Source of the DNA: Deltaproteobacteria bacterium HGW-Deltaproteobacteria-6
GTDB taxonomy: Bacteria > Desulfobacterota > Syntrophia > Syntrophales > Smithellaceae
Direction: 5' to 3'
Assembly: GCA_002840435.1 (NCBI GenBank)
Contig: PHAT01000006.1
Span: 1 to 64,000 of the forward strand
Length of the DNA stretch: 64,000 nt
The notes under the pieces are model-generated. The model did no database searches, had not been told where the DNA came from, and saw only the letters and a list, made by a program, of their open reading frames with translations. Made by a program: the position numbers and the translations under genes. This document shows positions 1 through 62,337 of this stretch, in pieces. Position 1 is the first letter of the stretch, and each line of letters begins with the position of its first letter.

Positions 1-1338
1 ACTCTCGCCCGTAATGGGCGCCTGATTCACTGAAGAATGTCCACTGGTCACGATGCCGTCGAGAGCAATCCGCTCACCGGGGCGCAGTCGAACAATGGCC
101 TCCAGCGGCACTGCTTTGGCGGGAATTTCTTTCCAGCTTCCATCTTCCTGGCGCACAGTCGCGGTTTCGGGCGCAAGATCCATCAATCCGCGAATCGCAT
201 TGCGCGCCCGGTCGAGCGACCTGGCCTCAATCACTTCAGCCAGCGCAAAAAGGAACATGACCATCGCCGCCTCCGGCCAGTGCCCGATGATCATGGCGCC
301 TGTCACAGCGATAGACATCAGCGCGTTAATGTTCAAATTGCCATTCCTGAGCGCGATTAAACCTTTCTTGTAGGTAGGCAGGCCGCCGATCAAAATCGAC
401 ACAAGCGCAAGGGCTATGACAACCCAGTGATTGCCACCGTTTATCCAGTACACAACCTCGGCCAGCGTCGCGCTAACTCCGGAAAGCGCCAGCGGCCACC
501 ACCTGGTTTTGGGTAATGGCACCGCAGGCGTGACCACATCCGTTGTGCCTCCCGACTCCACTTTTGCCTCAAAACCGATGGTTTGGAGGGCCGCCAAAAC
601 CGCGTCCAACGCCCCGGACTTATGCGTCACGGTCAAGCGTCGCTGCATCAGATTGAAGTCCAGTCCCGTCACACCGTCCATACCGGTGAGTTTGCCCCGA
701 ATCAATCCTTCCTCTGTCGGACAATCCATTTTTGCGATATTCAGAACTGTCCGTTCAAGCCCGGCCGGTGTGTCGATGCGCTTAGCCTGCATCCCGATTG
801 CGCGCAAGGCCTCTTCGACCGGTGTAAGCGAGGCGAGTTGATGGCTGACTGTCAACGTGCGCTGCATCAGGTTAAAGTCCAGTGACTTTATACCGTCAAT
901 GGGCTTCAGTTTATTCCGGATCAGCGCCTCTTCGGTAGGACAATCCATGTTGTCGATGCGATATAGTGCCTTTCCCTGCCCCACGGGGGATGGCTCAGTT
1001 AATGTCACGGGCCCAGGAGAGCAACTGCACCCGCCAACTTTGCATTCATTCGTGCTCGTTTTGTCTGGTGCCTGAATCAGCGTTAGCCCCTTAGCTTTGG
1101 ATTGAGTAATTTCCACTTGCATATTATCGGCAGGCCGGGCGCTCATGCCGGCCCTCTGTACCGCCGTGAATATATCCTTGTTATCAACAGCGCCTTTCGT
1201 AGTCGTTACAGTCATCGTGCCGTTGCAAAGATTAAATTTTACATCGCCAATACCGGGAAGCGCACCGACAACTTTGCGCAATTTATTGGTATCTTCTTCG
1301 CAACCCATGCCTGCTACTTTGAAAATGGTTTCGCTCAT
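1..1338 (-). CDS. cadA: Zn/Cd/Pb-translocating P-type ATPase, copy 1 (N-terminal part, cut by window edge)
   Basis: The reading frame is open from the ATG at 1338 to base 1, so the gene continues outside the window. Visible parts in order are three heavy-metal-associated domains (first with MGCEED, the next two with MDCPTEE), a Cys-rich linker containing GGCSCS, the first membrane segments and the actuator domain up to ITGES. The TGES dephosphorylation loop is present here, unlike in copy 2. The metal-binding domains carry Cys-x-x-Glu rather than the usual CxxC. It lies 83 bp downstream of arsR copy 1 and is probably co-transcribed with it. As an inner-membrane efflux ATPase it would export Zn, Cd or Pb. 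The catalytic core (CPC, DKTGT) is not visible. Confidence 0.9.
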   Translation of the reverse strand, partial: MSETIFKVAGMGCEEDTNKLRKVVGALPGIGDVKFNLCNGTMTVTTTKGAVDNKDIFTAVQRAGMSARPADNMQVEITQSKAKGLTLIQAPDKTSTNECKVGGCSCSPGPVTLTEPSPVGQGKALYRIDNMDCPTEEALIRNKLKPIDGIKSLDFNLMQRTLTVSHQLASLTPVEEALRAIGMQAKRIDTPAGLERTVLNIAKMDCPTEEGLIRGKLTGMDGVTGLDFNLMQRRLTVTHKSGALDAVLAALQTIGFEAKVESGGTTDVVTPAVPLPKTRWWPLALSGVSATLAEVVYWINGGNHWVVIALALVSILIGGLPTYKKGLIALRNGNLNINALMSIAVTGAMIIGHWPEAAMVMFLFALAEVIEARSLDRARNAIRGLMDLAPETATVRQEDGSWKEIPAKAVPLEAIVRLRPGERIALDGIVTSGHSSVNQAPITGES

Positions 1339-1384
1339 GTGCTTATTCCTTTCATCGCAAAATACATCCTTCAATTTACCAGTT

Positions 1385-1408
1385 ATATATGTGCGTACAT
1401 TCATATAT
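1385..1408. promoter_or_regulatory. ArsR-type operator between arsR copy 1 and cadA copy 1
   Basis: Imperfect palindrome with outer arms ATATATG and CATATAT around a 10-bp centre. The same design occurs at 1805-1828, 8289-8312 and 8709-8732. Its place between arsR and cadA suggests a second regulator-binding site or internal promoter for the ATPase gene. Confidence 0.6.
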
Positions 1409-1421
1409 ATAAATAAAAAAA

Positions 1422-1790
1422 TTATTCCTCTACGTGCTTCAAACCCGCCGTGAGGATGGAACTGATGTGATCATCATCCAAACTGTAATAAGCAATTCTG
1501 CCGTCCTTCCGATATTTAACCAAGTCCATATTTCTCAAGACTCTCAATTGATGCGAAATGGCAGATTGGGATGTGCCGATCAGTGTACTCAGGTCACATA
1601 CGCAAAGTTCTTCCTGCAAGAGCGCGGAGATAATCTTCGTTCTTGTCGGATCGCCCAAAACCTTGAAAATTGCCGCGAGTTTAAAAAGCGTTGCATCGGA
1701 TTTCATGGCTTTTCTGGCGGAGGCCACCTTCCGATCATTAATGCATAAGATTTCGCAAACATCTTCTTTACTTTTCTTTTCTCTTTTCAT
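1422..1790 (-). CDS. ArsR/SmtB-family metal-sensing repressor, copy 1
   Basis: 122 aa winged-helix repressor. Family marks are LGDPTRTKIISALL, SQSAISHQLRVLR (recognition helix) and YRKDGRIAYYSL (wing). Candidate metal ligands are the N-terminal Cys pair (DVCEILC), ELCVCDL in helix alpha-3, and the C-terminal DDDHxxSILxxGLxHVEE typical of the alpha-5 site. It lies directly upstream of cadA copy 1 and is nearly identical to the copy at 8326-8697, so the two units arose by duplication. The expected role is release of its operator on binding Cd, Zn or Pb. The exact metal cannot be read from sequence. Confidence 0.92.
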   Translation of the reverse strand: MKREKKSKEDVCEILCINDRKVASARKAMKSDATLFKLAAIFKVLGDPTRTKIISALLQEELCVCDLSTLIGTSQSAISHQLRVLRNMDLVKYRKDGRIAYYSLDDDHISSILTAGLKHVEE

Positions 1791-1804
1791 TGTTCAGCAC
1801 TCCA

Positions 1805-1852
1805 ATATATGAATATGTGCTCATACATTAGCATGTTTATTTATATTGTCAA
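1805..1852 (-). promoter_or_regulatory. arsR-cadA copy 1 promoter with ArsR operator
   Basis: On the minus strand a TTGACA -35 (1847-1852) and TAATGT -10 (1825-1830), 16 bp apart, overlap a palindrome at 1805-1828 with TATATGAA/TCATACAT arms. Overlap of -10 and operator fits simple repression. Confidence 0.65.
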
Positions 1853-1873
1853 GAAAATTAAAGGTTTTTTTCC

Positions 1874-2058
1874 TTATTTACTAATTTGCTTTATTGCTTT
1901 GATGGATGCGATTATTTGTTCTTCCGTGTTGAAATAACTGAAACTGACGCGCACTGTTCCCGCTGGATAAGTGCCAATAGTTTTATGCGCGGATGGTGCG
2001 CATTACAATCCGGAACGTGATATGATTTTAAAGCGCTCATCGAGTTCAAGAGCAACCA
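1874..2058 (-). pseudogene. Remnant of a cysteine desulfurase-family protein (C-terminal end)
   Basis: Translation of the minus strand gives about 60 residues of a NifS/SufS-like C terminus: RFKIISRSGL, an in-frame TAA, CAPSAHKTIGTYPAGTVRVS and a normal stop at 1874-1876. The RSGxxCAP-AHKT block is the active-cysteine loop of this PLP family. The stop falls where an ordinary residue should be and nothing upstream belongs to the gene, so this is a decayed fragment abutting the stop of the next gene. Confidence 0.7.
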
Positions 2059-2595
2059 CTAGATCGTTACCTGTCGCAACCGGATGACCGCCCTAAAGCC
2101 TAACAGGTTGCCCAGGATCGCACCCAACATCCAGGTTAAAGAACTGAGAACGAAAACCTCAAATCCAAGGGCAACGAGAGTTAGATAAGCTAAAATGCTA
2201 TAAACAGCAAAGTACAAATTGTCATTATTGAAGAAACTGCGGATTTCATCACGAGTCAAGACGAGGCCGCCCAAGGCAGCGCCGAAAATCACAAAAAACA
2301 GGCCGCAAAGGAGGTAAAAAACTACCGGTGGCGTCGCTAAGTGCAGCGCATGCAAGAACTCATTGTGCCGACTGAACCCTAAACCAAATTGCGGACAGAT
2401 GGTCAACGTCAAGAGTCCGGCAGCGACCTCGATAATAGTAAATTTGGTATAGACTTTCCAAAGGGCAGGCCGTAGATCCTTTCCTACCATTCGCAGAATC
2501 GCCTCATCTGCTGGTCCACCAGGGGCAGTCGGCTTGGCATCGATAAACTCAGCAAATTCCTTCAACATCGCTTGTTCGGATTTAGTTTCCACCAT
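2059..2595 (-). CDS. Membrane protein paired with ECF sigma factor, possible anti-sigma
   Basis: 178 aa with a soluble N terminus of about 45 residues and roughly four hydrophobic segments near 52-70, 88-112, 127-150 and 152-172. Its start overlaps the end of the ECF sigma gene by 14 bp, which implies translational coupling. Membrane proteins in this position are often anti-sigma factors or sensors for the partner sigma. No zinc-binding HxxxCxxC anti-sigma motif is visible, so that role is inferred from context only. Confidence 0.6.
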   Translation of the reverse strand: MVETKSEQAMLKEFAEFIDAKPTAPGGPADEAILRMVGKDLRPALWKVYTKFTIIEVAAGLLTLTICPQFGLGFSRHNEFLHALHLATPPVVFYLLCGLFFVIFGAALGGLVLTRDEIRSFFNNDNLYFAVYSILAYLTLVALGFEVFVLSSLTWMLGAILGNLLGFRAVIRLRQVTI

Positions 2596-3124
2596 GACGT
2601 ACCTCCTTGTTTCCCATTAGTTTACGGAGTTTACGAATGGCCCGGCTGATGATTTGTCTTATATTGTCTTCTGTCGTTTGCATTTGTGCGGAAATCTCCC
2701 TAAAGGTCAACCCCTCGTTAAAGCGGAGTTCCAGGGCTTGGCGTTGGGCATCAGTTAGACTGGAAAGCTCTGCAATCGCAACTCCGATGCTCGCCGTGTC
2801 GGACACCGGATCTGTACAGCACCCCACTTCCTTTTCGGAGATCGTGATGTGCTTCATATAGGTGTTCTTCTTTCTGACATAGTCAAACAAGTCATTTCTG
2901 GCGATGGTGAAAATCCAAGGCAAAAAGGGAATTTCCTGCCTGTATTTTTGCCTGGCGACATGAAGCTTGGCAAAAACAGACTGGAAAACATCGTCTGCCG
3001 CACTTCGGTCCTTTAATTTCGCAAAGAGGTACCCGAAGATGCGTTTTTTATGCCGCTCATACAAAGTCCGGAAAGCCTCTATATCACCATCGGCATAGGC
3101 AGCCATAAGTTCCTCATCCGTCAA
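2582..3124 (-). CDS. ECF-type RNA polymerase sigma factor
   Basis: 180 aa with only regions sigma-2 and sigma-4. Region 2 is seen in AFRTLYERHKKRIFGYL, AADDVFQSVFAKL and FLPWIFTIARNDLFDYVR. Region 4 helix-turn-helix is LTFREISAQMQTTEDNIRQI. The length is typical for the family. It is the first gene of a two-gene minus-strand operon and is divergent from the DUF6448 gene at 3469, a plausible target. The signal it responds to is unknown. Confidence 0.9.
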   Translation of the reverse strand: MTDEELMAAYADGDIEAFRTLYERHKKRIFGYLFAKLKDRSAADDVFQSVFAKLHVARQKYRQEIPFLPWIFTIARNDLFDYVRKKNTYMKHITISEKEVGCCTDPVSDTASIGVAIAELSSLTDAQRQALELRFNEGLTFREISAQMQTTEDNIRQIISRAIRKLRKLMGNKEVRHGGN

Positions 3125-3468
3125 TTTCAGTCACCTTTTCTTGAGGTTGGTTGTCAATAGTGGATACCAAATATTTCACGCTTCCATTCGTTTTTCAGAG
3201 AACCATCGTTAAAAGAGACGGGAGAGAGAAATCCGAGTCTGGTCTGCCTTCTTTAACACTGGTGTCCATTTTTTTCAACCCACCATATCTTAATACGTAC
3301 TTAAGCAGAGTCTTGTGACACTATTTTCTTGCTCTGAACCAAGTATTTGAAAATGCTGATATATTTGATGGGATCTATTTTTTATCAATTTATCTGTCAC
3401 AAATAGGTCGCCTCCCTCGTTCTAGCCGGTAAAGACACCAAAAAAACTCAAAACCAAGGGAGGAAAAA
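3125..3468. other. Divergent intergenic region between sigma operon and DUF6448 gene
   Basis: No coding sequence found. A possible ECF-type promoter reads toward 3469: GAACC at 3336-3340, 17 bp, then GATATA at 3358-3363. A near-palindrome around TACGTA lies at 3289-3305. Both are weak candidates. Confidence 0.25.
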
Positions 3469-4092
3469 ATGAAAAGAACGAAGGACTGTTTTAAAGGATT
3501 TGCAGCTATAACATTTTTGGCTTTGGCTATTCTGCTCACACCACAAACTAGTCTAGCCCACTGCGACACCCTCGACGGACCGGTGGTGGTCGAAGCGCGA
3601 GAGGCTCTAGCCAAGGGTGACGTCTACCCATTACTGAAGTGGATTAAGGCGGAAGAAGAAAAGGAAATCAGTGAAGCTTTCATTAAAACCATGGCAGTGC
3701 GCAAGCTCAACCCTGAGGCGCAGAAACTGGCCGACATGTACTTCTTCGAGACTCTGGTGCGGATCCATCGTGCCGGAGAGGGGGCTCCGTATACCGGGAT
3801 CAAGGCCACGGCAACTGGTGAAACGATTGTCGCCAAAGCCGATCAGGCTCTGGAAAAGGGGTCCATTGATGGGCTAGCCAAGGCCATCGCAACCCACACC
3901 GAAAAAGGGATCCGCGAACGTTTCAACCATGCGCTGGAAACCAGAAAGCATTCACAAGAAAGTGTGCTGGCCGGCCGGGAATATGTCAAGGCATACGTGA
4001 CTTTCACCCATTATGTCGAAGGGGTCGCCCAGGTTGTCGGTGGCAAAGGCCATGGTGCCGAGGCGGCATCCCCGGCAGCCCACAAGCACTGA
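3469..4092 (+). CDS. Exported DUF6448-family protein
   Basis: 207 aa with an N-terminal signal peptide (hydrophobic stretch at residues about 12-26, likely cleavage after SLA). The mature part begins HCDTLDGPVVVEAREAL and contains YFFETLVRIHRAGEGAPYTG, both hallmark blocks of DUF6448. It is mostly helical by composition, with several His and a His-rich tail (AAHKH), so metal contact is possible but unproven. A strong SD (GGGAGG) precedes the ATG. It is divergent from the ECF sigma operon, which suggests envelope-stress or metal-stress control. The biochemical function is unknown. Confidence 0.8.
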   Translation: MKRTKDCFKGFAAITFLALAILLTPQTSLAHCDTLDGPVVVEAREALAKGDVYPLLKWIKAEEEKEISEAFIKTMAVRKLNPEAQKLADMYFFETLVRIHRAGEGAPYTGIKATATGETIVAKADQALEKGSIDGLAKAIATHTEKGIRERFNHALETRKHSQESVLAGREYVKAYVTFTHYVEGVAQVVGGKGHGAEAASPAAHKH

Positions 4093-4099
4093 TAAAAAC

Positions 4100-4132
4100 G
4101 ACGAAGGGTGAGGAAGTTTCTCGCCCTTCGTC
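4100..4132 (+). terminator. Stem-loop just downstream of the DUF6448 gene
   Basis: 13-bp stem (GACGAAGGGTGAG pairing with CTCGCCCTTCGTC, one G-T pair) and 7-nt loop, starting 8 nt after the stop codon. No clear T-run follows. Confidence 0.6.
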
Positions 4133-4170
4133 ATATACTCCCACACGAAAAAAGGAAGTTCTTATCAAAA
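4131..4170. repeat. 40-bp direct repeat, copy A
   Basis: The 40 bases are repeated exactly at 5606-5645, where they cover the 3' end of cadA copy 2. Copy A follows the DUF6448 terminator. The two copies bracket the arsenic-transporter segment. Confidence 0.9.
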
Positions 4171-4292
4171 CTAGGACCAAGGTTGATTTCAGTGAAAGGC
4201 CTAATGTGCTTGACCCTGCCGAGTTGATCCAAAGAATCAAGACTTCGGAAACCTGAAACACTTCCCGCCAATCTTTCAGTGGTTAAAGAAAG

Positions 4293-4329
4293 ACGCCGTG
4301 AAACCATGTAGTATGGGGATTCACGGCGT
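4293..4329 (+). terminator. Rho-independent terminator-like hairpin
   Basis: Perfect 10-bp stem ACGCCGTGAA/TTCACGGCGT with a 17-nt loop, followed on the plus strand by TTTGGTTT. It could stop read-through from the DUF6448 side. Confidence 0.6.
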
Positions 4330-4349
4330 TTTGGTTTAGTTGGGTTATC

Positions 4350-4370
4350 AGGTGTCAGTGCCTGACACCT
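4350..4370. terminator. Small perfect hairpin at the 3' end of the BASS transporter gene
   Basis: AGGTGTCAG/CTGACACCT with a 3-nt loop lies 5 bp beyond the transporter stop. It may be a terminator or a REP-like repeat unit. Only one copy was noticed. Confidence 0.4.
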
Positions 4371-4375
4371 ATGGT

Positions 4376-5347
4376 TCACTTGTAGCGCCTGGCCTCTCGA
4401 AAAACGATCGACGGGACCAGCCGTATGTAAAACAACTCGCCGACCAGTTCCACCAGTGTTTGGGTCACAATGACAGCAGGCACCACCATCCAGGCGTCCG
4501 GCAAGGCAAGCGCAAGGGGAAGCACGACCAGTGAATTGCGCGTTCCCGCGCTAAAAATCAATGCCCTCCCAGCCTGGGTATCCAAGCGAAATATGCACGC
4601 TATCACGCGAGCCAGGAGGGGCACAATGACCATAAAGGTTACATAGATCGGCACGGCTTGAATCACAACCGGGAGGTATTGCTCGATTCCGCCGATTTGA
4701 GATGTCACAACGAGAAACAAGGTAAGTGCCATGAATGGTACGGGCAACCACGCTGTTGCTTCAAGCCAGACTTCTCCGCTGCGTTGGCGCTTGCCCCAGA
4801 ATTCAGTTGCCAAAGCCAGCCCCAGAGGCAAGGCAATGAGCACGAGAAATGCTTCCAAAAACGGGCCAGCACTCATTATCTGTGCGGCCTGTCCTCCCAT
4901 GAAAAGCCACAGATAAAATGGCAGAAGAAGCATCTGGGCGAGAAGCAGCAGAGGCGTGGAGGCGAGAACAAGCCGTGCGTTTCCACGCCCCAGGTGGGTA
5001 AAGACGATGACGTAGTCAATGCAGGGCGTGAGCAGAACGAGGTACACCCCGAGCAACAAAGGCGACTGCTGTGGCAAGAAGCGCGACAACAACCAAACAA
5101 ACAGGGGAACAACAATGAAATTTACGGTCAGCAAGGCGGCGGTAAACCGTCGGCTCGCGAACGCCTCGCGTAGATGGAGGAACGGAATCTGGGTAAACAT
5201 GCTGTAGAGCAAGATCGCAAGCACTGGGGAGATCAAGAACTCGAGGCTTTTACCAAAAGTCGGGCGCCACAACCCAAGCCCTCCCCCGAGAGCCAAGGCC
5301 AAGGCATATACCCAGATCTGTTTTTTTTCTAGTCGTTCTCTTGACAT
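4376..5347 (-). CDS. Arsenic-resistance transporter of the bile acid:sodium symporter (BASS/ACR3-like) superfamily
   Basis: 323 aa, almost entirely hydrophobic, with about ten membrane segments. The conserved TPCIDYVIVFTHLGRG block and the SAGTRNSLVVLPLALALP region match BASS-fold transporters annotated as arsenic resistance proteins. It would act in the inner membrane, exporting arsenite or a related anion. It sits alone, with an attC-like sequence upstream of its start and a 40-bp repeat on each side, so it may be a recently inserted cassette. No arsR or arsC lies directly beside it. The substrate is inferred from the family. Confidence 0.8.
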   Translation of the reverse strand: MSRERLEKKQIWVYALALALGGGLGLWRPTFGKSLEFLISPVLAILLYSMFTQIPFLHLREAFASRRFTAALLTVNFIVVPLFVWLLSRFLPQQSPLLLGVYLVLLTPCIDYVIVFTHLGRGNARLVLASTPLLLLAQMLLLPFYLWLFMGGQAAQIMSAGPFLEAFLVLIALPLGLALATEFWGKRQRSGEVWLEATAWLPVPFMALTLFLVVTSQIGGIEQYLPVVIQAVPIYVTFMVIVPLLARVIACIFRLDTQAGRALIFSAGTRNSLVVLPLALALPDAWMVVPAVIVTQTLVELVGELFYIRLVPSIVFREARRYK

Positions 5348-5363
5348 CGTGTTTCCTTAAGAC

Positions 5364-5412
5364 GCATAACGTCTGGCATCAGCGGCGAGCCCGCTGCATG
5401 CCGGGGTTAGGC
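5364..5412 (-). other. attC-like (integron recombination site) structure
   Basis: Read on the minus strand, GCCTAAC (R'' type, 5406-5412) and GTTATGC (R' type, 5364-5370) bound an imperfect inverted repeat, GGCATGCAGCGG against CCGCTGATGCC, with one unpaired G as in attC sites. At 49 bp it is shorter than the usual minimum of about 57 bp. It lies 16 bp upstream of the BASS gene start. No integrase is seen in the window. Confidence 0.4.
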
Positions 5413-5605
5413 TCGTCGGCGCGGTACGACGGATTCCCTGCAGCTACTTGATGAAGTAGCCGCTGACGCGTCAGGAGCCGTCTTTCTCGTACATGGGAGT
5501 AAAGATTTCTTAAAAAGACTAATGTCGCAATGTGCCTTCAACGCAATCATCGGTGCGACAACCCACATCTTGTGGTCAAGATTTCCTTGACATACAAGAC
5601 TTTCT

Positions 5606-5645
5606 TCATATACTCCCACACGAAAAAAGGAAGTTCTTATCAAAA
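5606..5645. repeat. 40-bp direct repeat, copy B
   Basis: Identical to 4131-4170. It includes the stop codon and last bases of cadA copy 2, so copy A may mark where another cadA end once lay. Confidence 0.9.
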
Positions 5646-8239
5646 TCGGCGCAGCAACCTCAACCCGTTGAACACCACCAACAGACTCGCGCCCATATCT
5701 GCGAAGACCGCCATCCACATCGTTGCCTGCCCGGTCAAGGTCAGAAACAGGAACACCGCCTTGATGCCGAGTGCCAACACAATGTTCTGCGTCAGCACCC
5801 GAGCCGTGGCCCGAGACAGGCGCACGAAAGCGGGAATCTTGCGCAGGTCGTCGTCCATCAACGCCACGTCAGCCGTTTCGATGGCGGTGTCCGTACCGGC
5901 AGCACCCATGGCAAAGCCAATATCCGCACGGGCCAACGCGGGTGCATCATTGATACCGTCGCCCACCATGCCTACCTTGCCGCCATTCCCGTTTGTCAGG
6001 AGACTTTCGATCGTTTTGAGTTTGTCTTCAGGCAGCAAATTGCCCCTTGCCTCATCAATACCGACCTCTCGTGCGATTGCTTCGGCCGTATGGACGTTAT
6101 CGCCGGTAAGCATTAATGTTTTCACACCGAGGGAATGCAAGTCAGCGATGGCCTTACGGCTTGTTTCCCTTACTGTGTCGGCAACTGCAAAAATAGCGAG
6201 CACTCCGGTTTGGTTAGCCAGTAATACTGCTGTCTTGCCCTGGCTCTCCAGTGCGGTAAGTTGGGTCTCGATATCCTGCGAACACAATCCAAGATTCTCG
6301 ATCAAACGATGATTGCCAAGTTGATAGAGGTGCCCTGCAATGCTACCTTTGACGCCATGACCGGGAATGGCGGCAAAATCGTTCACATCGCGCAGCGTCA
6401 GTCCTGCTTCTGCCGCAGCATGAGCAACGGCCAGTGAAACCGGATGATCGGAACGTGAGGCGAGGCTGGCCGCCAGTATTCTGGTTTCGTTCGCCTCACC
6501 ACTGAGAACGATAAAATCGGTTTGTACCGGTTTACCGTATGTAATGGTACCCGTCTTGTCGAGCGCCAGCGCCTTAAGCTTGCGGCCCTCTTCGAGATAC
6601 ACGCCGCCTTTAATCAGGATTCCCTTGCGGGCCGCGGCAGCAAGACCACTGACAATGGTCACGGGTGTTGAAATCACCAGTGCGCACGGGCAGGCAATCA
6701 CCAACAACACCAAAGCCTTGTATATCCAGTCGAGCCATGCAGCATCTGAGACCAGCGGCGGAATAACTGCCACCAGAAACGCGAGTGCAAAAACAGCAGG
6801 TGTATAAATTTTGGCAAACTGATCAACAAAGCGCTGTGTTGGCGCCCGGCTGCCCTGGGCAGACTCGACGGCGTGGATGATCCGAGCCAGCGTCGAATGG
6901 CTTGCCTCTGCCGTCACGCGGTATTCAAACGATCCCGTTTCGCACTGGTCACGATGCCGTCGAGAGCAATCCGCTCACCGGGGCGCAGTCGAACAATGGC
7001 TTCCAGCGGCACTGTTTTGGCGGGGATTTCTTTCCAACTTCCATCTTCCTGCCGCACGGTCGCGGTTTCGGGCGCAAGATCCATCAATCCGCGAATTGCA
7101 TTGCGCGCCCGATCGAGCGACCTGGTCTCAATCACCTCGGCCAGTGCAAAAAGGAACATGACCATCGCCGCCTCCGGCCAGTGCCCGATGATCATGGCGC
7201 CTGTCACAGCGATAGACATCAGCGCGTTCATATTCAGATTGAGGTTCCTTAGGGCAACCCAGCCTTTCTTGTAGGTAGGCAGACCGCCGGTGAAAATTGC
7301 CAGCAGCGCAAGTGCTATGACAATCCAGTGATTGCCGCCGTTTACCCAGTGCACAACCTCGGCCAGCAACGCGGCAACCCCGGAAAGCGCCAATGGCCAC
7401 CACTTGGTTTTGGGTAATGTCGCCGCAGGCGTGACCATATCTGTTGAACCTCCCGACTCCACTTTTGCCTCAAAACCGATGGTTTGGAGGGCCGCCAAAA
7501 CCGCGTCCAACGCCCCGGACTTGTGCGTCACGGTCAGGATGCACTGCATCAAGTTGAAGTCCAGTCCCGTCACGCCGTCCATACCGGTGAGTTTACCCCG
7601 AATCAATCCTTCCTCCGTCGGACAATCCATTTTTGCGATCTTCAGAACTGTCCGTTCAAGCCCGGTCGGTGTGTCGATGCGCTTAGCCTGCATTCCGATC
7701 GTGCGCAAGGCCTCTTCGACCGCTGTAAGTGAGGCGAGCTGATGACTGACTGTCAGCGTGCGCTGCATCAGGTTAAAGTCCAGTGCCTTTAAGCCGTCAA
7801 TGGGCTTCAGTTTATTCCGGATCAGCGCCTCTTCGGTGGGACAATCCATATTATCGATGCGATACAGCGCCTTTCCCGGTCCCACAGAGAATGGCTCAGT
7901 TAATTTCACGGGCATAGGAGAACAACTGCACCCGCCGGTTTTGCATTCATTTGTGCTCGTTTTGTCTCGCCCTTGTATCAGCGTTAGTCCCTTAGCGCTG
8001 GACTGAGTATTTTCCACTTGTGTATTGTCGGCAGGCCGGGCGCTCATGCCGACCCTTTGTACCGCCGCGATGATATCCTTACTATCAACAGCGTTTTTCA
8101 TAGTCGTTACAGTCATCGTGCTGTTGTGAAGATTGAATTTCACATCGCTGATTCCCGACAATGCGCCAACTACTTTCATTAAAGCGTTGGTCTCTTCGGC
8201 GCAATCCATACCTGTTACTTTGAAAATGGTTTCGTTCAT
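5640..8239 (-). pseudogene. cadA: Zn/Cd/Pb P-type ATPase, copy 2, inactivated by internal deletion and frameshift
   Basis: Two adjacent frames together make one ATPase. The 5' part (8239-6914) has three metal-binding domains (GMDCAEE, MDCPTEE twice), GGCSCS and the actuator start, ending GIVTSAKRD and then a stop. The 3' part (up to 6950 and on to 5640) resumes at TGSFEYRVTAEASHS and has CPC (IACPCALVIS), DKTGTITYGKP, MVGDGINDAPALA and the typical C terminus VVFNGLRLL. Copy 1 still has HSSVNQAPITGES at the junction. Copy 2 has lost that segment, including TGES, and changed frame. It lies downstream of arsR copy 2, which still has both operators. An active pump is very unlikely unless separately made halves assemble, and the missing TGES argues against that. 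Confidence 0.88.
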
Positions 8240-8288
8240 GTCCTTATTCCTTTCATCATAAATAGATCCTTCAATCAGTTAACTAGTT

Positions 8289-8312
8289 ATATATGTGCAT
8301 ATATTCATATAT
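8289..8312. promoter_or_regulatory. ArsR-type operator between arsR copy 2 and cadA copy 2
   Basis: Palindrome with ATATATG and CATATAT arms. It is the counterpart of 1385-1408 and is better conserved than that site. Confidence 0.6.
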
Positions 8313-8325
8313 TTAAATAAAAAAA

Positions 8326-8697
8326 TTACTCCTCTACATGCTTCAAACCCGCTGTGAGGATTGAACTGATGTGATCATCATCCAAACTGTAATAAGCAAT
8401 TCTGCCGTCTTTCCGATATTTAACAAGGTCCATATTTCTCAAGACTCTCAATTGATGCGAAATGGCAGACTGGGATGTGCCGATCAGGGTACTCAAGTCA
8501 CATACGCAAAGTTCTTCCTGCAAGAGAGCGGAGATAATCTTCGTTCTTGTCGGATCGCCTAGAACCTTGAAAATTGCAGCGAGTTTAAAAAGCGTTGCAT
8601 CGGACTTCATGGCTTTTCTGGCGGCGGCCACCTTCCGATCATTAATGCATAAGATTTCGCAAACATCTTCTTTATTTTTCTTTTCTCTTTTCATCAT
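8326..8697 (-). CDS. ArsR/SmtB-family metal-sensing repressor, copy 2
   Basis: 123 aa, differing from copy 1 at only a few N-terminal residues (two Met at the start, KNKED for KSKED, AAARK for ASARK). All candidate ligands are kept: DVCEILC, ELCVCDL and DDDHISSIL-KHVEE. The DNA-reading helix is the same, so it should bind the operators of both units. It lies upstream of the broken cadA copy 2 and may now serve mainly to regulate copy 1 in trans. Confidence 0.92.
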   Translation of the reverse strand: MMKREKKNKEDVCEILCINDRKVAAARKAMKSDATLFKLAAIFKVLGDPTRTKIISALLQEELCVCDLSTLIGTSQSAISHQLRVLRNMDLVKYRKDGRIAYYSLDDDHISSILTAGLKHVEE

Positions 8698-54183: not shown

Positions 54184-55311
54184 ATGGCAGAAAGAAGAGC
54201 CGCTGAAGTTTTTCCGCCGGGAGAATTTATAAAGGAAGAATTAGAAACGCGCAATTGGAATCAGACTGAATTGGCTGAAATTATTGGACGCCTCCCCAGT
54301 GTGATTAATGAGTTGATTTCTGGGAAGAGAGCTATCAGCCCAGAAATAGCAAAAGCATTAGGTGAAGCGTTTGGAACTAGCGCAGATTATTGGTTAAATT
54401 TGGAAAGCATGTATCAGCTTTGGCATGTTGCGGATACTGGTAATGTTATTTCACGTAGAGCAAGACTTTATAAAATAGCACCAATCAAGGAAATGGTCAA
54501 AAGACATTGGATTGAACCATCTGAAAATATTGATGTTCTTGAAAATACAGTAAAAGGTTTTTTCAAAATAGATGATTTAGATAATCCAATTCAGTTGCCA
54601 TATGCCGCGCGTTGCAGCAGACAAGAAATACCGTCCGCTTCGCTCAACGCATGGTTAGTTAGGGCCAAGCAATTAGCCATTTGTGTAGATGCAAAACCAT
54701 TTTCTGTTAAGTCATTTAGTAATTGTTTAGCACAATTAAAGAAATTAATGCCTAGTTTACAAGAAGTAAGACATGTCCCTAGAATTTTAGCAGAAAATGG
54801 CATTCGTTTCTTAGTATTGGAACACTTGCCGCAGACCAGCGTTGATGGCGTCACTTTCTGGCTTGATAATAAAAGCCCTGTGATTGTTCTTTCCTTGAGA
54901 TCTGATAGGATTGATAATTTTTGGTACACATTGGCACATGAATTAGGACATGTAAAACGAAAGGATGGATTAACGGATGTAATTATAGACACCAACCTTG
55001 TCGGTAATGAATACTATCTTAATGACATACAATCAGAAGCAGAGCAGCAGGCGAATTTATTTGCAGCAGATTTTTTAATTAACCAATCAGATTTGAATAA
55101 TTTTATTGCAAGAGTTCGCCCTCTTTATGGAACTACTAAGATAATTGGATTTGCGCAAAGAATTGGTGTTCACCCTGCCATTGTTATTGGACAACTCCAA
55201 TTTAAGGGAGAAATACCCTGGTCATCGTTTCGGAAAATGTTAGATAAAATGAGACATGTTTTAATCCCATCGGCCTTAACTGATGGATGGGGGCAAACTG
55301 TTACACTATGA
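54184..55311 (+). CDS. HigA-like antitoxin fused to an ImmA/IrrE metallopeptidase domain
   Basis: 375 aa. N-terminal XRE/HigA helix-turn-helix (PPGEFIKEELETRNWNQTELAEIIG, SGKRAISPEIAKALGEAFGTS). From about residue 190 an ImmA/IrrE peptidase domain has WYTLAHELGHVKRK (HExxH) and EQQANLFAADFLI. Fused antitoxins of this kind occur with HigB toxins. The peptidase may control antitoxin stability. It is translated with higB (11-bp gap). Confidence 0.85.
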   Translation: MAERRAAEVFPPGEFIKEELETRNWNQTELAEIIGRLPSVINELISGKRAISPEIAKALGEAFGTSADYWLNLESMYQLWHVADTGNVISRRARLYKIAPIKEMVKRHWIEPSENIDVLENTVKGFFKIDDLDNPIQLPYAARCSRQEIPSASLNAWLVRAKQLAICVDAKPFSVKSFSNCLAQLKKLMPSLQEVRHVPRILAENGIRFLVLEHLPQTSVDGVTFWLDNKSPVIVLSLRSDRIDNFWYTLAHELGHVKRKDGLTDVIIDTNLVGNEYYLNDIQSEAEQQANLFAADFLINQSDLNNFIARVRPLYGTTKIIGFAQRIGVHPAIVIGQLQFKGEIPWSSFRKMLDKMRHVLIPSALTDGWGQTVTL

Positions 55312-56298: not shown

Positions 56299-56348
56299 TG
56301 TTTAGTGTTTAGTTATTGGTTGACACGCAAAATAGAATATGTTACAAA
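56299..56348 (+). promoter_or_regulatory. Promoter/operator of the HTH-ImmA pair
   Basis: TGTTTAGTGTTTAG (56299-56312, two TTTAG half-sites) lies just upstream of a TTGACA (56320-56325), 17 bp, TACAAA (56343-56348). The same 14 bp recur at 57427-57440 before the Ubl operon. Confidence 0.6.
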
Positions 56349-56368
56349 CACGAACAAGGAGAGAATTT

Positions 56369-56716
56369 ATGAGTGAAACACTTGGAGACCGTTTAAAACG
56401 TATGAGGTCTTCGCGGGGGCTCGGTTTACGTGAGACAGCCATCAAAGTTGGTATGTCAGCAACATACCTTTCGCGTGTGGAAAACAACCAAGAAACCAGT
56501 CCCCCAAGCGAAGAGAAAATTCGGAATCTTGCAGACGTGCTCAAAGGCAATTTTGATGAGTTGATGCAACTTGCGGGTCGAATATCCTTTGAGGTCACGG
56601 AACTAATCAAGGCCGATTCAAATATGCCAGCATTTCTCAGGCGATCCAGGGAAAAAAACTTAACCGCCGAGGAATTGATGAAACTACTTGAAAAACAGGA
56701 TACTGAGGATAAATGA
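56369..56716 (+). CDS. XRE-family HTH repressor (CapH-like position)
   Basis: 115 aa from the ATG at 56369 (GGAGAG upstream; 56339 lacks an SD). LGDRLKRMRSSRGLGLRETAIKVGMSATYLSRVEN is the helix-turn-helix. A helical C-terminal part, DEEL-free, ends MKLLEKQDTEDK. It overlaps the next gene by 4 bp. In CBASS loci a HTH protein (CapH) and a peptidase (CapP) form such a pair that controls the defence operon. Confidence 0.85.
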   Translation: MSETLGDRLKRMRSSRGLGLRETAIKVGMSATYLSRVENNQETSPPSEEKIRNLADVLKGNFDELMQLAGRISFEVTELIKADSNMPAFLRRSREKNLTAEELMKLLEKQDTEDK

Positions 56717-57405
56717 GCATAAAAGTTCCCTACAGAAAAATATCTGAGATAGAGACAATGTCACGCGAACTTTTGCATAAGTATGAGGTGTGGAAGAAAC
56801 ACCCATTGGCGCCTCCAATCAATGTAGATGAAATAGTGGAAGGCTACTTCCATATCTCCCTCGAATTCGGGGATTTAAAGCAACATCTTTCGATTCCAGA
56901 TGTCTTAGGGGCTACCTGGTTCGATGAGCAAGTGATACGAATAGACTCTTCACTAGAAACTAAAGAAGGTCGTTTATCTTTCACAATGGCCCACGAGATC
57001 GGACATTGGTGGATGCACCGCCCAATCTATGAAATGGGAAAAGTAACATTCCCACTATTTGCTTACGGACAGGCACCACCATCTGCTGCTGTTGTATGCC
57101 GTATTTCAGGGAAGAAAGAACCGGCAGAGTGGCAGGCGGATCAATTCGCGGCTATGCTTTTGATGCCCGCATCATTATTACGGGCGTCGATATCTTCTAT
57201 TAATGGTTACGAACAAATAAAAATTGAAGGACTTGCAAAACATCTCGGAAATCTTGCTGACAATCCGGACCTTCGTAAAGCAGCCAAGTGTATCATCGAA
57301 ACCAGTTTCAGTAATGTATCAATAGAGGCGATGTGTTATCGGCTCATCGATCTTAAGCTTGTTGTGGATTCGACCCCATCACAGACAGTTTTGTTGAATT
57401 GCTAA
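56713..57405 (+). CDS. ImmA/IrrE-family metallopeptidase (CapP-like)
   Basis: 230 aa. TMAHEIGHWWMH (HExxH zinc site) and EWQADQFAAMLLMP (third ligand region). A Cys in AAVVCRISGKKEP lies between them, reminiscent of the cysteine described for CapP as an inhibitory zinc ligand. It likely cleaves the HTH repressor encoded just upstream. No signal peptide. Confidence 0.82.
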   Translation: MSIKVPYRKISEIETMSRELLHKYEVWKKHPLAPPINVDEIVEGYFHISLEFGDLKQHLSIPDVLGATWFDEQVIRIDSSLETKEGRLSFTMAHEIGHWWMHRPIYEMGKVTFPLFAYGQAPPSAAVVCRISGKKEPAEWQADQFAAMLLMPASLLRASISSINGYEQIKIEGLAKHLGNLADNPDLRKAAKCIIETSFSNVSIEAMCYRLIDLKLVVDSTPSQTVLLNC

Positions 57406-57426
57406 GAAGTGTTTTTTTGTCAATGC

Positions 57427-57440
57427 TGTTTAGTGTTTAG
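57427..57440. promoter_or_regulatory. Second copy of the TGTTTAGTGTTTAG site
   Basis: Identical to 56299-56312, placed 30 bp before the first gene of the Ubl operon. Probably bound by the XRE protein. Confidence 0.55.
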
Positions 57441-57470
57441 GGAACAAATAATTAGAAAGGAGGTGATAAC

Positions 57471-57641
57471 ATGGCAAAAAACCCACCTGTAGGAGATGGG
57501 CACCGGCACGGCGCAGTTAAGGAACGAAGCCAAACCTACAATCCGAACATAGACCGTTGGACCAAGCGTGGACCAGATGGTAAGTTCATGGATCAGAAGG
57601 TTGACGGCGATCCTTTTAAGGGTGTGCGTAAAGAAAAGTGA
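57471..57641 (+). CDS. Small conserved basic protein at the head of the Ubl operon
   Basis: 56 aa with a strong SD (AAAGGAGGTGATAAC). Starts MAKNPPVGDGHRHGAVKERS and ends DGDPFKGVRKEK, with WTKRGPDGKFMD in between. Small proteins of this pattern are common and unnamed and may be DNA- or RNA-associated. Too short for routine gene calling. Confidence 0.65.
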   Translation: MAKNPPVGDGHRHGAVKERSQTYNPNIDRWTKRGPDGKFMDQKVDGDPFKGVRKEK

Positions 57642-57723
57642 AAAAGAAAATGGAGGTATGTCTTCAAAAACATGCCTCCGATTTTTTACCCTAAACAACA
57701 AATTAGAAAAAGGAGAACAACTT

Positions 57724-57993
57724 ATGACTAGCAACCATTCAGAACAGTCCCCCGGCCATAATAAAACTACGATGATTATTATTAACGGTCGGCAGCGTGA
57801 AGTTACCGGAAAAGAAATCACGTATTCCCAGGTTGTTCAAATGGCTTTTCCTGATGACCAGAATAGCGAGACGATAGAATATACTGTAGCCTATGCCAAT
57901 CCACACGGACAAGATGGTACACTGGTTAACGGACAAACAGTTCATATCAAAGAAGGGATGGTATTCAATGTCACCAAAACCAATCGTTCTTGA
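57724..57993 (+). CDS. Ubiquitin-like (multiubiquitin-domain) protein
   Basis: 89 aa from the ATG at 57724 (AAGGAG upstream). A single beta-grasp unit: MIIINGRQREVTGKEITYSQVV, ETIEYTVAYAN and LVNGQTVHIKEGMVFNVTKT. It matches the bacterial multiubiquitin domain, which can occur singly. The C terminus ends TNRS without a Gly-Gly, so any conjugation would need trimming or another chemistry. It overlaps the E1 gene by 26 bp. Confidence 0.75.
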   Translation: MTSNHSEQSPGHNKTTMIIINGRQREVTGKEITYSQVVQMAFPDDQNSETIEYTVAYANPHGQDGTLVNGQTVHIKEGMVFNVTKTNRS

Positions 57994-59176
57994 TCCGGAT
58001 CTTGAACGCCTCCAAAAGGAGGGTTATGAAATTGAAGTTCGGGATGGACATTTATTGGTTCATTCCGTTCCATATGTGAATGCTCAACGCAACGTCCTGC
58101 AAGGAATTATAGTAACCAATCTTAACGGAAATATAGGTAAACTGGGACCGCCTAGCGATCATCAGGTTTGGTTCGCTGGCGAATACCCATGCCATCACAC
58201 AGGAGCTCCCATTGATGGTATTCGCTGTTCCTCGGGCTCGTTTAAGTTCTGGGATGGGTTCGAGGCACAGCACCATTTTTCATGTAAACCTGAAGGGGGC
58301 AGCAATTATCCAGATTATTACTCAAAAGTTAAGAGCTACATATCCATTATTTCGAATGAAGCCAAAGTAATTGATCCGAGTACTACTCCTCTCACATTTA
58401 AAATCATCGTATCGGCTGAACAAGATACCATCTTTCGTTATTGGGATTCAGCATCAAGCAGAGCCAACATTGTTGCTGTCTCTGAAAAACTCCTCATGAA
58501 CAAGGTAGCTATAATTGGCCTTGGAGGCACCGGTTCCTATGTCCTTGATCTTGCCGCAAAGACACCAATTCGAGAAATCCATTTATTTGATGGCGATATC
58601 TTTCATCAGCACAATGCATTCAGGTCACCCGGTGCCCCTTCTATAACCACTCTTCAGGCGAAGCCCGCCAAAGTAGATTACTTTGCAAGCGTCTACAATG
58701 AAATGCGAACCGGCATCGTTCCGCATTGTTGCTATCTTACTGAAGACAATATTGTCGAGCTTACCGGATTCGATTTTGTTTTTATGTGTGTGGATAAAGG
58801 CGCAGTAAGAAGACTGCTGAGTGACTTTTTGCACAACCAAAATATTCCGTTTATTGATGTCGGCATGGAACTCATTATGATACAAGAAGACAATTGTATT
58901 TTGGGTACATGCCGCGCCACCTTGAGCACTCCAGAGAGAAATGATCATTTTGAAAGACGTGCACCGATGGGTAACGAAAGCGGTAATGATCTTTACAAAA
59001 GCAATATTCAGGTTGCAGACATGAATGCCTTGAATGCAACACTTGCTGTTATAAAGTGGAAACAGTATTATGGCTTTTATCAGGACGTTTACAAATTTCA
59101 CCATACAACCTACTCTGTAAATGCACATTCCCTGACACGGGACGAGATAACAGGAATGAGTGATACAACCCCATGA
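57968..59176 (+). CDS. ThiF/E1-like enzyme with N-terminal E2-like (DUF6791-type) domain
   Basis: 402 aa from the ATG at 57968. N-terminal 140 residues: HSVPYVNAQRNVLQGII, WFAGEYPCHHTGAPIDGI and AQHHFSCKPEG, as in DUF6791 domains next to ThiF. From about 170 an adenylating fold: KVAIIGLGGTGSYVLDLAA, EIHLFDGDIFHQHNAFR and FVFMCVDKGAVRRLL. It would activate the ubiquitin-like protein. Bacterial Ubl-E1 systems are linked to phage defence. Confidence 0.8.
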   Translation: MSPKPIVLDPDLERLQKEGYEIEVRDGHLLVHSVPYVNAQRNVLQGIIVTNLNGNIGKLGPPSDHQVWFAGEYPCHHTGAPIDGIRCSSGSFKFWDGFEAQHHFSCKPEGGSNYPDYYSKVKSYISIISNEAKVIDPSTTPLTFKIIVSAEQDTIFRYWDSASSRANIVAVSEKLLMNKVAIIGLGGTGSYVLDLAAKTPIREIHLFDGDIFHQHNAFRSPGAPSITTLQAKPAKVDYFASVYNEMRTGIVPHCCYLTEDNIVELTGFDFVFMCVDKGAVRRLLSDFLHNQNIPFIDVGMELIMIQEDNCILGTCRATLSTPERNDHFERRAPMGNESGNDLYKSNIQVADMNALNATLAVIKWKQYYGFYQDVYKFHHTTYSVNAHSLTRDEITGMSDTTP

Positions 59177-59601
59177 AACGATCATCAATTACTCCAGTAT
59201 TTGTGGATATTATTCCAGACCGGCTGGAAGAAGGATATTTATATATTTGTGAGCGCTATAAGACGGTTGCCCATAAATGCTGCTGCGGATGCGGAGAAGA
59301 GGTTATAACACCGCTATCTCCTGCAGACTGGACTATACGCGTGCTGGGAAAAACAGTTTCACTTATTCCCTCCATAGGTAACTGGAGTTTTGCGTGTAAG
59401 TCTCATTACTGGATTTCCAACAACAAGGTTTTATGGGCGAGTAAGTTATCCGCACGGCAGATTGACCAAGTCAAAGCACGAGACAAGGCGGATAAGAAAG
59501 CCTATATTGTGGCCATCAACAAACAAAAAGAAAGACAGGTGAAGCCAATTTCGTTTGTGGCAAGGGTCTGGCAAGCTTTCAAGCATTGGTGGAAATCATA
59601 A
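59173..59601 (+). CDS. DUF6527-family protein of the Ubl operon
   Basis: 142 aa. CCCGCGEEVITPLSPADWTI forms a zinc-knuckle-like cluster, then GNWSFACKSHYWISNNKVLWA. This layout is DUF6527, often found beside ThiF/Ubl genes. Overlaps the E1 stop by 4 bp (ATGA). Role unknown; substrate recognition or deconjugation can only be guessed. The next 126 bp up to the coming gene hold no feature. Confidence 0.75.
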   Translation: MKRSSITPVFVDIIPDRLEEGYLYICERYKTVAHKCCCGCGEEVITPLSPADWTIRVLGKTVSLIPSIGNWSFACKSHYWISNNKVLWASKLSARQIDQVKARDKADKKAYIVAINKQKERQVKPISFVARVWQAFKHWWKS

Positions 59602-59760
59602 AAAATGAACTTTTTCCAAGAAACATCCTTATCTAGCTATTTACACTGAGGTTGAATGTTGCGAGATTAATACTGACAACCACCGGAAATATAAGTTCTC
59701 CATCAATTTATTTGATGGGAGGTTTTTGTGCTCATGCCAAAAACACAAAAGGAGATAAGC

Positions 59761-62337
59761 ATGAAAAAGACTTTTATGATCGTCATCCTATTGGTTATTT
59801 CCATATTATCAATTTATTCCGCACAGCCTGATCTAATCTATGCCCATGGCAAGGCATCATCCACTGAAGAAGGCATATATCCCACTGGACCGACATGCTC
59901 AAAATTATCCACTGCCAAGTGGGAGGATATCAGTCTTTATGATCTGACCTACGGTTGTATGCCGGCTGGATGGGATACCTTTTTTAAGACAGATGACGTA
60001 CGCGAGCAGATAAGCAATATCTCCGACGCAATAACGCATCAGGTCAAACAAGGGTATAGGATAGGCCCTGCGATCGGGAACACCTTCAGGGCGTTGTACC
60101 TTGTTAAGCCAGATGAAGTAAAAGCCGTTATCATGGGACAAGACCCGGCTCCTCAACCAGGTCTGGCCACAGGCCTGGCATTTTCGACAGAACCCAATGT
60201 ACCTTCATCAAAAGTAGCTTCAATACAGCGCGTCCTTCTCGAAGCGCAAAACGAAGGTTTCTGCATAAATCTCAACAACGGAGATTTGAAAAAATGGACG
60301 GATGACGGTTTATTGCTGCTGAATATGGCTCTTTCTATCCCCTGCCCTCCGGATGAACAGAGTTGCACGATCGGCGGGCATATAGCTTTATGGGGCGTCT
60401 TTACGGATCATCTGGTTAATTACATCGACAACAATGCAGGCGCCGCCGCATTCATCTTATGGGGCAGCAAATCCGGCGAGTACGGGAAAAATGTTAAAAA
60501 CAAAGCTCATAAAGTCCTCAAGGGTGGTCATCCGTCCCCGAGGGTTTCAGGAGCAAATTTCTTTTGTAAGAATTATTTCAACTGCACGAACAAATGGCTG
60601 ACGGCAAACGGCCGTAAACCGATCGACTGGAAATTAAAAGATACCTGCAGCAAATCAAAACCCTGTATCTGGGCCTGGCATAGCGGAACAGGAACATCAA
60701 CATGCAGTAAAGAATGCTCCCTTAAGGATTGTGACGTAGCAAAAGTTCCAGAGATGGCAATACCTTTAACAGCCACGAGAGGCGGTAATGATCCGGAGGT
60801 TGTCCAATGCAAAAAACTGGAACCACCTAAACAGGGGGTATGTTCAGTCACACAAGGAAATGACTCTATCCTGATCAGTGGGAATATTCTGGCGCCGTCG
60901 AAAGTATATGCCGGCGGCGATGTCCTTATCAAAGACGGAATGATCGCCTGTGTCGGATGCGACTGTAGCAGCGGTTTAGCGGAAAAACCGACAAAGATCT
61001 CGTGTGCAAACGGTGTCGTATCTCCCGGCCTGATCAATGCCCACGACCACATCACATACAACCAGAACTTCCCGGCGGACTGGGGCAGCATACGCTATGA
61101 CCACCGCAATGTCTGGCGGAAGGGCGGTGATTCCGGTCATCCAATAATACCGTCCAACAAGGGTCGGGATAATCAGTTCCCATGGTCCGAATTACGACAG
61201 GTGCTGTCAGGCACCACATCCGTTGCAGGATCGGGAGGGGCAAAGGGATTACTGCGTAACCTAGACAAGGATGAACTCCTTGAGGGCCTCAAAGCGAAGA
61301 AGGTGTTTTACAGCACATTTCCATTGGGGGACGTTGACGGCGTCATGCACACCAATGACTGCAACTATCCCAAAATTGACAGTCCTTCTGTTGTCCTTGC
61401 TGACCAGTGTTACTTGCCGCATGTGGCCGAAGGTGTCAACCAGGCTGCAAACAACGAGATACGTTGCATGAACGAAAGCAAACTTATAACGTCCGAAAGC
61501 GCATTCATACATGCAGTCGGAGCTTCAGGCAAAGATGCCTATCTTTTAAAAGAAAAAGGAACTTCCATAATCTGGTCGCCCCGATCGAACATATCTCTAT
61601 ACGGGAATACTGCCCTGGTAACCATGTACAAAACCCTGGGATTAAATATTGCACTCAGTACGGACTGGACTCCTTCAGGCTCCATCAATCTCTTAAGAGA
61701 ACTCAAATGCGCAGACTCCTTCAACTCCGATTATTTGGCGAAAACGTTTTCCGATAAGGACCTGTGGAATATGGTCACTGCCAATCCGGCAGATGCCCTT
61801 AAGTTGTCCGATAAAATCGGGAGATTGCAGAAAGACATGGTGGCGGATATTGCCATTTACGACGGATCATCGCGATCCAATGTCTATCGAGCAATTATTG
61901 ATGCCGACGTTGAACACGTGGCACTTGCTCTTAGAGGAGAAATGCCACTATATGGCGATACCAATATAATGCAGTCTATTCCGAATGGTCAGCAAGGATG
62001 TGAGCCTTTCCCCAGCGGAATAAAAGGGCGGCAAAAGACGGTCTGTATTGAGAGAGAAATCGGGATAGACTTTAATGCCCTTCAAAACAACAATAAGGAC
62101 TCATACCCGTTGTTTTTCTCCGGCGTTCCGACAGGTGAACCGACGTGCGTTCCCTCCAGACCGAACGAATACACAGGCAAAAAAACGCCCGCCGACTGGG
62201 ACGGTGACGGAATTCCAAACGAAAAGGACAACTGTCCGTATATTTTTAATCCAATCCGGCCAATGGACAACGGTGCACAGGCGGACTGCAACAAAGACGG
62301 TATTGGCGATGCTTGTGATCCAAAGCCGTGCAGTTGA
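59761..62337 (+). CDS. Exported fusion: uracil-DNA-glycosylase-like domain + amidohydrolase + TSP3-like repeats
   Basis: 858 aa from the ATG at 59761 (AAAAGGAG upstream). Signal peptide (residues 1-21 or so). Residues about 60-290 are family-1 UDG-like: GQDPAPQPGLATGLAFS (Asp128, with Ala130 replacing the usual Tyr of GQDPYH), LLLLNMALSI (Asn188), GGHPSPRVSG (His257) and a PIDW end. Residues about 360-750 are an amidohydrolase: NAHDHITYN (H428, H430), LPHVAEG (H554, E557), FIHAVG (H584) and LSTDWTPSG (D635), the full ATZ/TRZ-type metal set. The last 50 residues have DWDGDGIPNEKDNCP and CNKDGIGDACD, calcium-binding TSP3-like. Why a base-excision enzyme would be exported is unclear. Confidence 0.82.
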   Translation: MKKTFMIVILLVISILSIYSAQPDLIYAHGKASSTEEGIYPTGPTCSKLSTAKWEDISLYDLTYGCMPAGWDTFFKTDDVREQISNISDAITHQVKQGYRIGPAIGNTFRALYLVKPDEVKAVIMGQDPAPQPGLATGLAFSTEPNVPSSKVASIQRVLLEAQNEGFCINLNNGDLKKWTDDGLLLLNMALSIPCPPDEQSCTIGGHIALWGVFTDHLVNYIDNNAGAAAFILWGSKSGEYGKNVKNKAHKVLKGGHPSPRVSGANFFCKNYFNCTNKWLTANGRKPIDWKLKDTCSKSKPCIWAWHSGTGTSTCSKECSLKDCDVAKVPEMAIPLTATRGGNDPEVVQCKKLEPPKQGVCSVTQGNDSILISGNILAPSKVYAGGDVLIKDGMIACVGCDCSSGLAEKPTKISCANGVVSPGLINAHDHITYNQNFPADWGSIRYDHRNVWRKGGDSGHPIIPSNKGRDNQFPWSELRQVLSGTTSVAGSGGAKGLLRNLDKDELLEGLKAKKVFYSTFPLGDVDGVMHTNDCNYPKIDSPSVVLADQCYLPHVAEGVNQAANNEIRCMNESKLITSESAFIHAVGASGKDAYLLKEKGTSIIWSPRSNISLYGNTALVTMYKTLGLNIALSTDWTPSGSINLLRELKCADSFNSDYLAKTFSDKDLWNMVTANPADALKLSDKIGRLQKDMVADIAIYDGSSRSNVYRAIIDADVEHVALALRGEMPLYGDTNIMQSIPNGQQGCEPFPSGIKGRQKTVCIEREIGIDFNALQNNNKDSYPLFFSGVPTGEPTCVPSRPNEYTGKKTPADWDGDGIPNEKDNCPYIFNPIRPMDNGAQADCNKDGIGDACDPKPCS

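Follow-up and report, generated by a model that had tools for sequence, protein, structure and literature searches.

Uracil-DNA glycosylases (UDGs) are textbook intracellular repair enzymes. What, then, is the function of a gene that appears to place such an enzyme behind a signal peptide and to join it to a metallohydrolase and a calcium-binding-type repeat? The gene lies in the window, by which we mean the whole 64,000-nucleotide stretch of DNA analysed, and is a single uninterrupted open reading frame of 858 codons, ordered as Sec-type signal peptide, family-1 UDG domain, TRZ/ATZ-type amidohydrolase and TSP3 repeat. Its ATG, preceded by AAAGGAGATAAGC, is favoured over a possible alternative GTG start at 59728 because of the strong Shine-Dalgarno sequence before it. 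The G+C content is alike in both gene halves (0.46 and 0.49). The features to which we refer are as follows.

59699–59719, + strand: terminator-like hairpin between the upstream ubiquitin-type operon and the gene, from a consensus scan only
59761–62337, + strand: whole gene for the 858-residue, probably exported UDG-amidohydrolase-TSP3 protein; open frame, Shine-Dalgarno AGGAGAT at about 59750
59761–59844, + strand: Sec-type signal peptide, residues 1–28, with KK n-region and hydrophobic core; predicted cleavage between IYA and HG
59959–60642, + strand: family-1-type uracil-DNA glycosylase domain, residues 67–294, from NCBIfam, PDB phmmer, and AlphaFold2 with Foldseek
60136–60153, + strand: motif A, GQDPAP, residues 126–131, by alignment; Asp128 kept, Ala130 at Tyr66 (E. 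coli)/Tyr147 (human)
60322–60324, + strand: Asn188 in LLLN, equivalent to E. coli N123 (uracil recognition), an invariant alignment column
60529–60543, + strand: motif B, HPSPR, residues 257–261, by alignment; catalytic His kept, Arg in place of intercalating Leu191
60643–60804, + strand: Cys-rich linker (CIWAWHSGTGTSTCSKECSLKDC) and fusion junction, from comparison with L004 and stand-alone amidohydrolases
60805–62160, + strand: TRZ/ATZ-type amidohydrolase, residues 349–800, from Pfam and hhalign; HxH 428/430, HxxE 554/557, His584, Asp635
62191–62328, + strand: TSP3 calcium-binding-type repeat, residues 811–856, Pfam TSP_3 23 bits

The UDG assignment of the N-terminal module is firm. NCBIfam ung models match residues 67–294 at E 6e-44, with the best equivalog score just below its cut-off (150.5 versus 162 bits, PRK05254.1-5) and other models further below; Pfam UDG scores 24.4 versus 24.3 bits, and phmmer against the PDB returns E. 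coli Ung at E 3e-30, other UNGs likewise lying at about 1e-30. An AlphaFold2 model of the module, built from an alignment of the window UDG, its relative at locus L004 and 54 viral UDGs, has a pLDDT of 87.7 and a pTM of 0.87, and family-1 UNGs head its Foldseek matches in the PDB (3tr7: E 4e-20, target TM 0.92, rmsd 1.7 Å). The first-pass annotation of this DNA, which had called a family-1 UDG-like domain, an ATZ/TRZ amidohydrolase and TSP3 repeats, had staked its reading on a UDG-like structure for the first domain. The model matches UNG crystal structures, and profile searches bear out all three domain calls. The E-values and the UDG fold exclude chance matches as the source of these assignments.

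Catalytic Asp128, stacking Phe141, Asn188 of LLLN and His257 of HPSP are invariant across the alignment of secreted and bacterial UDGs. Three further residues of the pocket and loop have changed together: Tyr to Ala, His67 to Pro and Leu191 to Arg. Motif A reads GQDPAP, not the family-1 GQDPYH, in the window protein and in L004, and both carry HPSPRV, lacking the intercalating Leu of HPSPLS. The 74 viral UDGs compared have Tyr (72) or Phe (two) at the motif-A Tyr position and never Ala, while in 29 of them Pro instead of His follows. A natural GQDPAP motif in a putatively secreted UDG is the new element of this analysis; the first-pass annotation had missed both it and HPSPR. Because family-1 motif A fails, we name the protein a divergent, exported UNG-like protein and not an Ung; the module is homologous to family-1 UDGs by descent and fold, without that family's defining motif A.

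What these changes would do to activity can be judged in part from characterized enzymes. The motif-A Tyr bars the thymine methyl group, and human UNG Y147A and D. radiodurans UNG Y85A excise thymine (PMC11289083). Vaccinia D4, in which Pro replaces His67 and Arg replaces Leu191, is nonetheless described as uracil-specific (PMC1936997), so the His-to-Pro and Leu-to-Arg changes alone need not abolish activity. With Tyr, His67 and Leu191 all differing at once, activity may be low or gone. Our prediction is that the UDG module is still catalytic, with room at C5.

Export of the UDG-amidohydrolase-TSP3 protein from the cytoplasm is probable. The signal peptide, MKKTFMIVILLVISILSIYSAQPDLIYA followed by HG, has a charged n-region, a hydrophobic core and a cleavage site as judged from sequence features, and its peak 13-residue hydropathy is 3.3, compared with values below 0 for ordinary cytosolic bacterial UDGs. 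The L004 protein has a matching signal-peptide end (...RPDFIYA before DG), and on these features the signal peptide proposed in the first-pass annotation stands. All 12 Cys of the UDG module are conserved between the two secreted copies and are largely missing from aligned cytosolic UDGs, which fits an exported protein held by disulfide bonds.

The L004 protein (also G036/L007), from the same family as the host, is 71–74% identical over residues 1–329 and shares GQDPAP, HPSPR and the signal peptide before running into an unrelated 368-residue C-terminus. Over the shared module, dN/dS is 0.154/2.18 by NG86 (~0.07) and 0.164/1.30 by LWL85 (~0.13), and a ratio of about 0.1 shows purifying selection on the secreted UDG module. 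In a tree of the secreted pair with 54 viral and five bacterial UDGs, the pair is fully supported on a stem branch of 2.65 changes per site. It appears as a remote, deeply divergent branch of family-1 UDGs, the exact placement of which is not fixed by the tree.

This module is rare, with two genomes found. It occurs in no further genome among 155 of the class or 395 sampled from the phylum, and further class-level searches, together with searches of plasmids and phages, returned no secreted UDG module. L004 was the sole match to the UDG module in a genome-contig scan sensitive to close relatives only, other class members gave no family-1 UDG match at E 1e-15, and viral scans found no relatives of the secreted UDG and none of the amidohydrolase; plasmid and phage records held ordinary UDGs only, at ~25–38% identity. 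A housekeeping role for the fusion protein was considered and rejected: the host genome carries, on another contig, a separate family-4 UDG with the GEAPG motif, which would serve repair. The alternative C-terminus of the secreted UDG in L004 (8985–10088, 368 aa) has no relatives in the 395 phylum genomes or plasmids, and none of its Pfam matches exceeds the cut-off. The N-terminal glutamine amidase model matches below threshold (23 versus 27 bits), in a stretch that overlaps the CIWAWH linker common to the L004 and window proteins, and we take a glutamine amidase identity as only a lead.

The second enzyme-type module is recognized by Pfam Amidohydro_1 above cut-off at residues 580–705 (E 6e-10), with the HxH motif lying upstream of the match. 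An hhalign comparison with MTA/SAH-deaminase-like proteins of related genomes reaches 98.6% probability (E 9e-16), and each of the six catalytic positions is aligned (H428, H430, H554, E557, H584 and D635). Profile matches to solved members, at E 8e-15, comprise amidohydrolases, 8-oxoguanine deaminase and atrazine chlorohydrolase; scores against the named deaminase and chlorohydrolase equivalogs are far below all cut-offs (best 59 bits, cut-off 522). A single-sequence AlphaFold2 model of this module alone reaches a pLDDT of 36, and the TIM-barrel fold of the TRZ/ATZ family is putative here. The TSP3 repeat scores 23.0 bits against Pfam TSP_3, below the gathering cut-off of 25; its pattern is canonical (DxDGDGxxxxxDNCP...DxNxDGxGDACD-type), phmmer matches it to thrombospondin-2 at E 3e-6, and it is common to the amidohydrolase relatives L037, L046 and L140.

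A survey of the architecture across genomes, which the first-pass annotation had proposed, found the modules again but in other combinations: in L004 another C-terminus follows the UDG, and the amidohydrolases occur without UDG. Among the latter, L008 (G076; 54% identity) passes directly from signal peptide to domain and lacks TSP3, and L037 (G172) and L046 (G607) have other N-termini together with TSP3, L046 being without a His equivalent to H584. The protein resembles L004 up to about residue 329 and the stand-alone amidohydrolases from about residue 345 onwards. This junction, and the occurrence of the modules apart, indicate that the protein is a modular fusion, joining two enzyme-type modules that are each exported independently. 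Only one genome yielded the complete fusion.

Two further loci carry related sequence. L140, a long open reading frame on the minus strand, is an amidohydrolase-TSP3 relative that has lost all metal ligands; by inspection, it is followed by a lamin-tail-like C-terminal sequence and has a transposase-like gene beside it. On host contig C5, a decayed 190-nt copy (L003, 1490–1674) is 74% identical to the 3' TSP3 end of the gene and looks like the trace of a lost paralogue.

The surroundings of the gene suggest a link to defence. Upstream, window positions 56339–59601 (+ strand) hold a CapH/CapP-like regulator pair followed by multiubiquitin, DUF6791-ThiF (E1-like) and DUF6527 genes, a bacterial ubiquitin-type operon that may be a CapH/CapP-controlled defence system; a second HTH plus metallopeptidase-like (HigA-like) gene lies just upstream of the CapH/CapP pair (54184–55311, + strand). 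Elsewhere in the window, positions 1–8697 (− strand) contain two very similar units of ArsR-like regulator and heavy-metal P-type ATPase, the second ATPase unit being split, apparently by a lesion, into open reading frames 5640–6917 and 6914–8239. Neighbours of the L004/G036 gene include an ArdC-like gene, a CBASS pair (SMODS, Cap15) and what looks on inspection like a coupling-protein-type ATPase, and the stand-alone amidohydrolase of G076 adjoins type I restriction genes. At L135 (11752–18734), a stand-alone exported amidohydrolase adjoins a PIN-like gene, an HTH-M78 gene and type I restriction HsdR. The window, L004 and G076 genes all lie in accessory or defence islands, and the defence link is suggestive; an accessory-gene island setting by itself does not mean defence. 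PADLOC models match neither the window protein nor the L004 protein, a Pfam search of the window protein returned no delivery domain, and the fusion gene is not coupled to any candidate immunity gene, to a secretion apparatus or to a nuclease. A classic toxin-immunity pair was rejected for want of a candidate immunity gene, the next gene downstream being a convergent D12-class adenine methylase.

We propose, tentatively and with rather less than even confidence, that the gene encodes an exported, active UDG with an enlarged C5 pocket that acts on DNA outside the cytoplasm and is fused to an exported, TSP3-bearing metallohydrolase. The signal peptide would carry the fusion protein to the periplasm or cell exterior, where the UDG module would cleave from DNA both uracil and uracils substituted at C5 (thymine, hydroxymethyluracil or modified phage thymines). 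This wide C5 range is proposed because Ala stands where Tyr normally blocks C5, and export would keep the enzyme from harming the cell's own chromosome. The TRZ/ATZ metallohydrolase and TSP3 repeat would probably give surface or calcium-dependent placement, and the amidohydrolase module would probably add an independent small-molecule hydrolase activity. Action on DNA outside the cytoplasm is plausible, and the biological role may be an attack on, or a barrier to, foreign DNA. A bolder version, in which an exported natural glycosylase for thymine (or C5-substituted uracil) would strip bases from the DNA of phages, plasmids or neighbours, the host's own genome being spared by compartment, we consider a long shot.

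The strongest rival is a non-catalytic role, in which the UDG fold would be an exported DNA-binding head that removes no base and, for example, tethers extracellular DNA to the surface via TSP3. Both the Tyr and the intercalating Leu are lost, the stem of the secreted pair is very long at 2.65 changes per site, and L140, stripped of its metal ligands, suggests that such surface proteins can drop catalysis. Conversely, the two secreted copies agree at Asp128, Phe141, Asn188 and His257 and throughout motifs A and B, and the window amidohydrolase retains six of six catalytic residues. Vaccinia D4, with GIDPYP and Arg at the Leu position, speaks on both sides, since it has a catalysis-independent replication role but is still described as a uracil-specific glycosylase (PMC1936997). 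We judge a DNA-binding head unlikely, while giving it serious weight.

Other readings turn on the fusion itself. The first-pass annotation had suggested a nucleic-acid scavenging or attack enzyme acting on extracellular DNA. In the scavenging version, bases would be freed from such DNA by the glycosylase and then processed for nutrition by the deaminase fused to it. Probable export and the activity of both domain families on nucleobases or related rings would be in keeping with this idea, but neither uracil nor thymine carries an exocyclic amine that a deaminase could remove. Because a deaminase cannot act on the first domain's product, coupled scavenging is very unlikely; the modules, moreover, occur apart in other genomes and so are not obligatory partners, and no nuclease or base-uptake gene was seen alongside the gene. 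The idea was not borne out. It is somewhat easier to imagine, if still improbable, that the fusion is neutral or accidental, without joint function in an accessory-gene island, or that the contig is misassembled. Exported UDG-only and amidohydrolase-only proteins exist, the fusion is known from a single genome, and the decayed 3'-end copy elsewhere in the host suggests that such genes move and decay here; the junction, however, is in frame, at a domain boundary and without a stop, both halves are similar in G+C, and an assembly error joining two exported modules in frame is unlikely.

Returning to the exported, active glycosylase that we favour, such a UDG branch would, if real, mean that base excision also reaches DNA beyond the cytoplasm, and would hint at a new kind of barrier to foreign DNA or weapon against it. 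The window Ala is the natural counterpart of the laboratory mutation that turns UNG to thymine excision, and an active enzyme would supply thymine base editing, which at present depends on engineered UNG, with a natural scaffold.

A literature search, conducted mainly in papers available without subscription, found no paper on a secreted UDG of the window type or on the GQDPAP motif, and comparison is therefore with enzymes that share parts of its design. Family-1 Ung/UNG proteins (E. coli Ung, Coxiella 3tr7, D. radiodurans 2boo) are alike in fold over ~225 residues (TM 0.92), in the catalytic Asp, Phe, Asn and His, and in the LLLN and HPSP motifs; the window protein differs from them in its predicted export, the 12 Cys kept in both copies, GQDPAP and HPSPR, short inserts, a C-terminal fusion and a score just below the NCBIfam equivalog cut-offs. 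Human UNG Y147A and D. radiodurans UNG Y85A have Ala at the same motif-A position (PMC11289083), but are laboratory-engineered and intracellular, whereas the window Ala is natural and is accompanied by Pro at His67 and Arg at Leu191. Vaccinia D4 shares this Pro (GIDPYP) and Arg, and differs in keeping the Tyr, in being an intracellular replication factor and in its remote sequence (PMC1936997). With TRZ/ATZ (subtype III) amidohydrolases, namely MTA/SAH, guanine and 8-oxoguanine deaminases, the second module has in common the six catalytic positions and the C-terminal barrel part; it is distinguished by predicted export, Cys richness, the TSP3 tail and WSPRSN/TDWTPSGS signatures. Brig1, an anti-phage glycosylase of the UDG superfamily with a roomier C5 pocket (PMC11078745), resembles the window protein in superfamily, in the opening at C5 and in its location among defence genes. 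It differs in being structurally nearest a family-4 enzyme, in acting inside the cell and in recognizing a modified cytosine, whereas the window UDG keeps the Asn for uracil/thymine-type bases. Brig1 nonetheless shows that a UDG-fold enzyme with extra space at C5 can be an anti-phage weapon, which lends support to the role proposed here.
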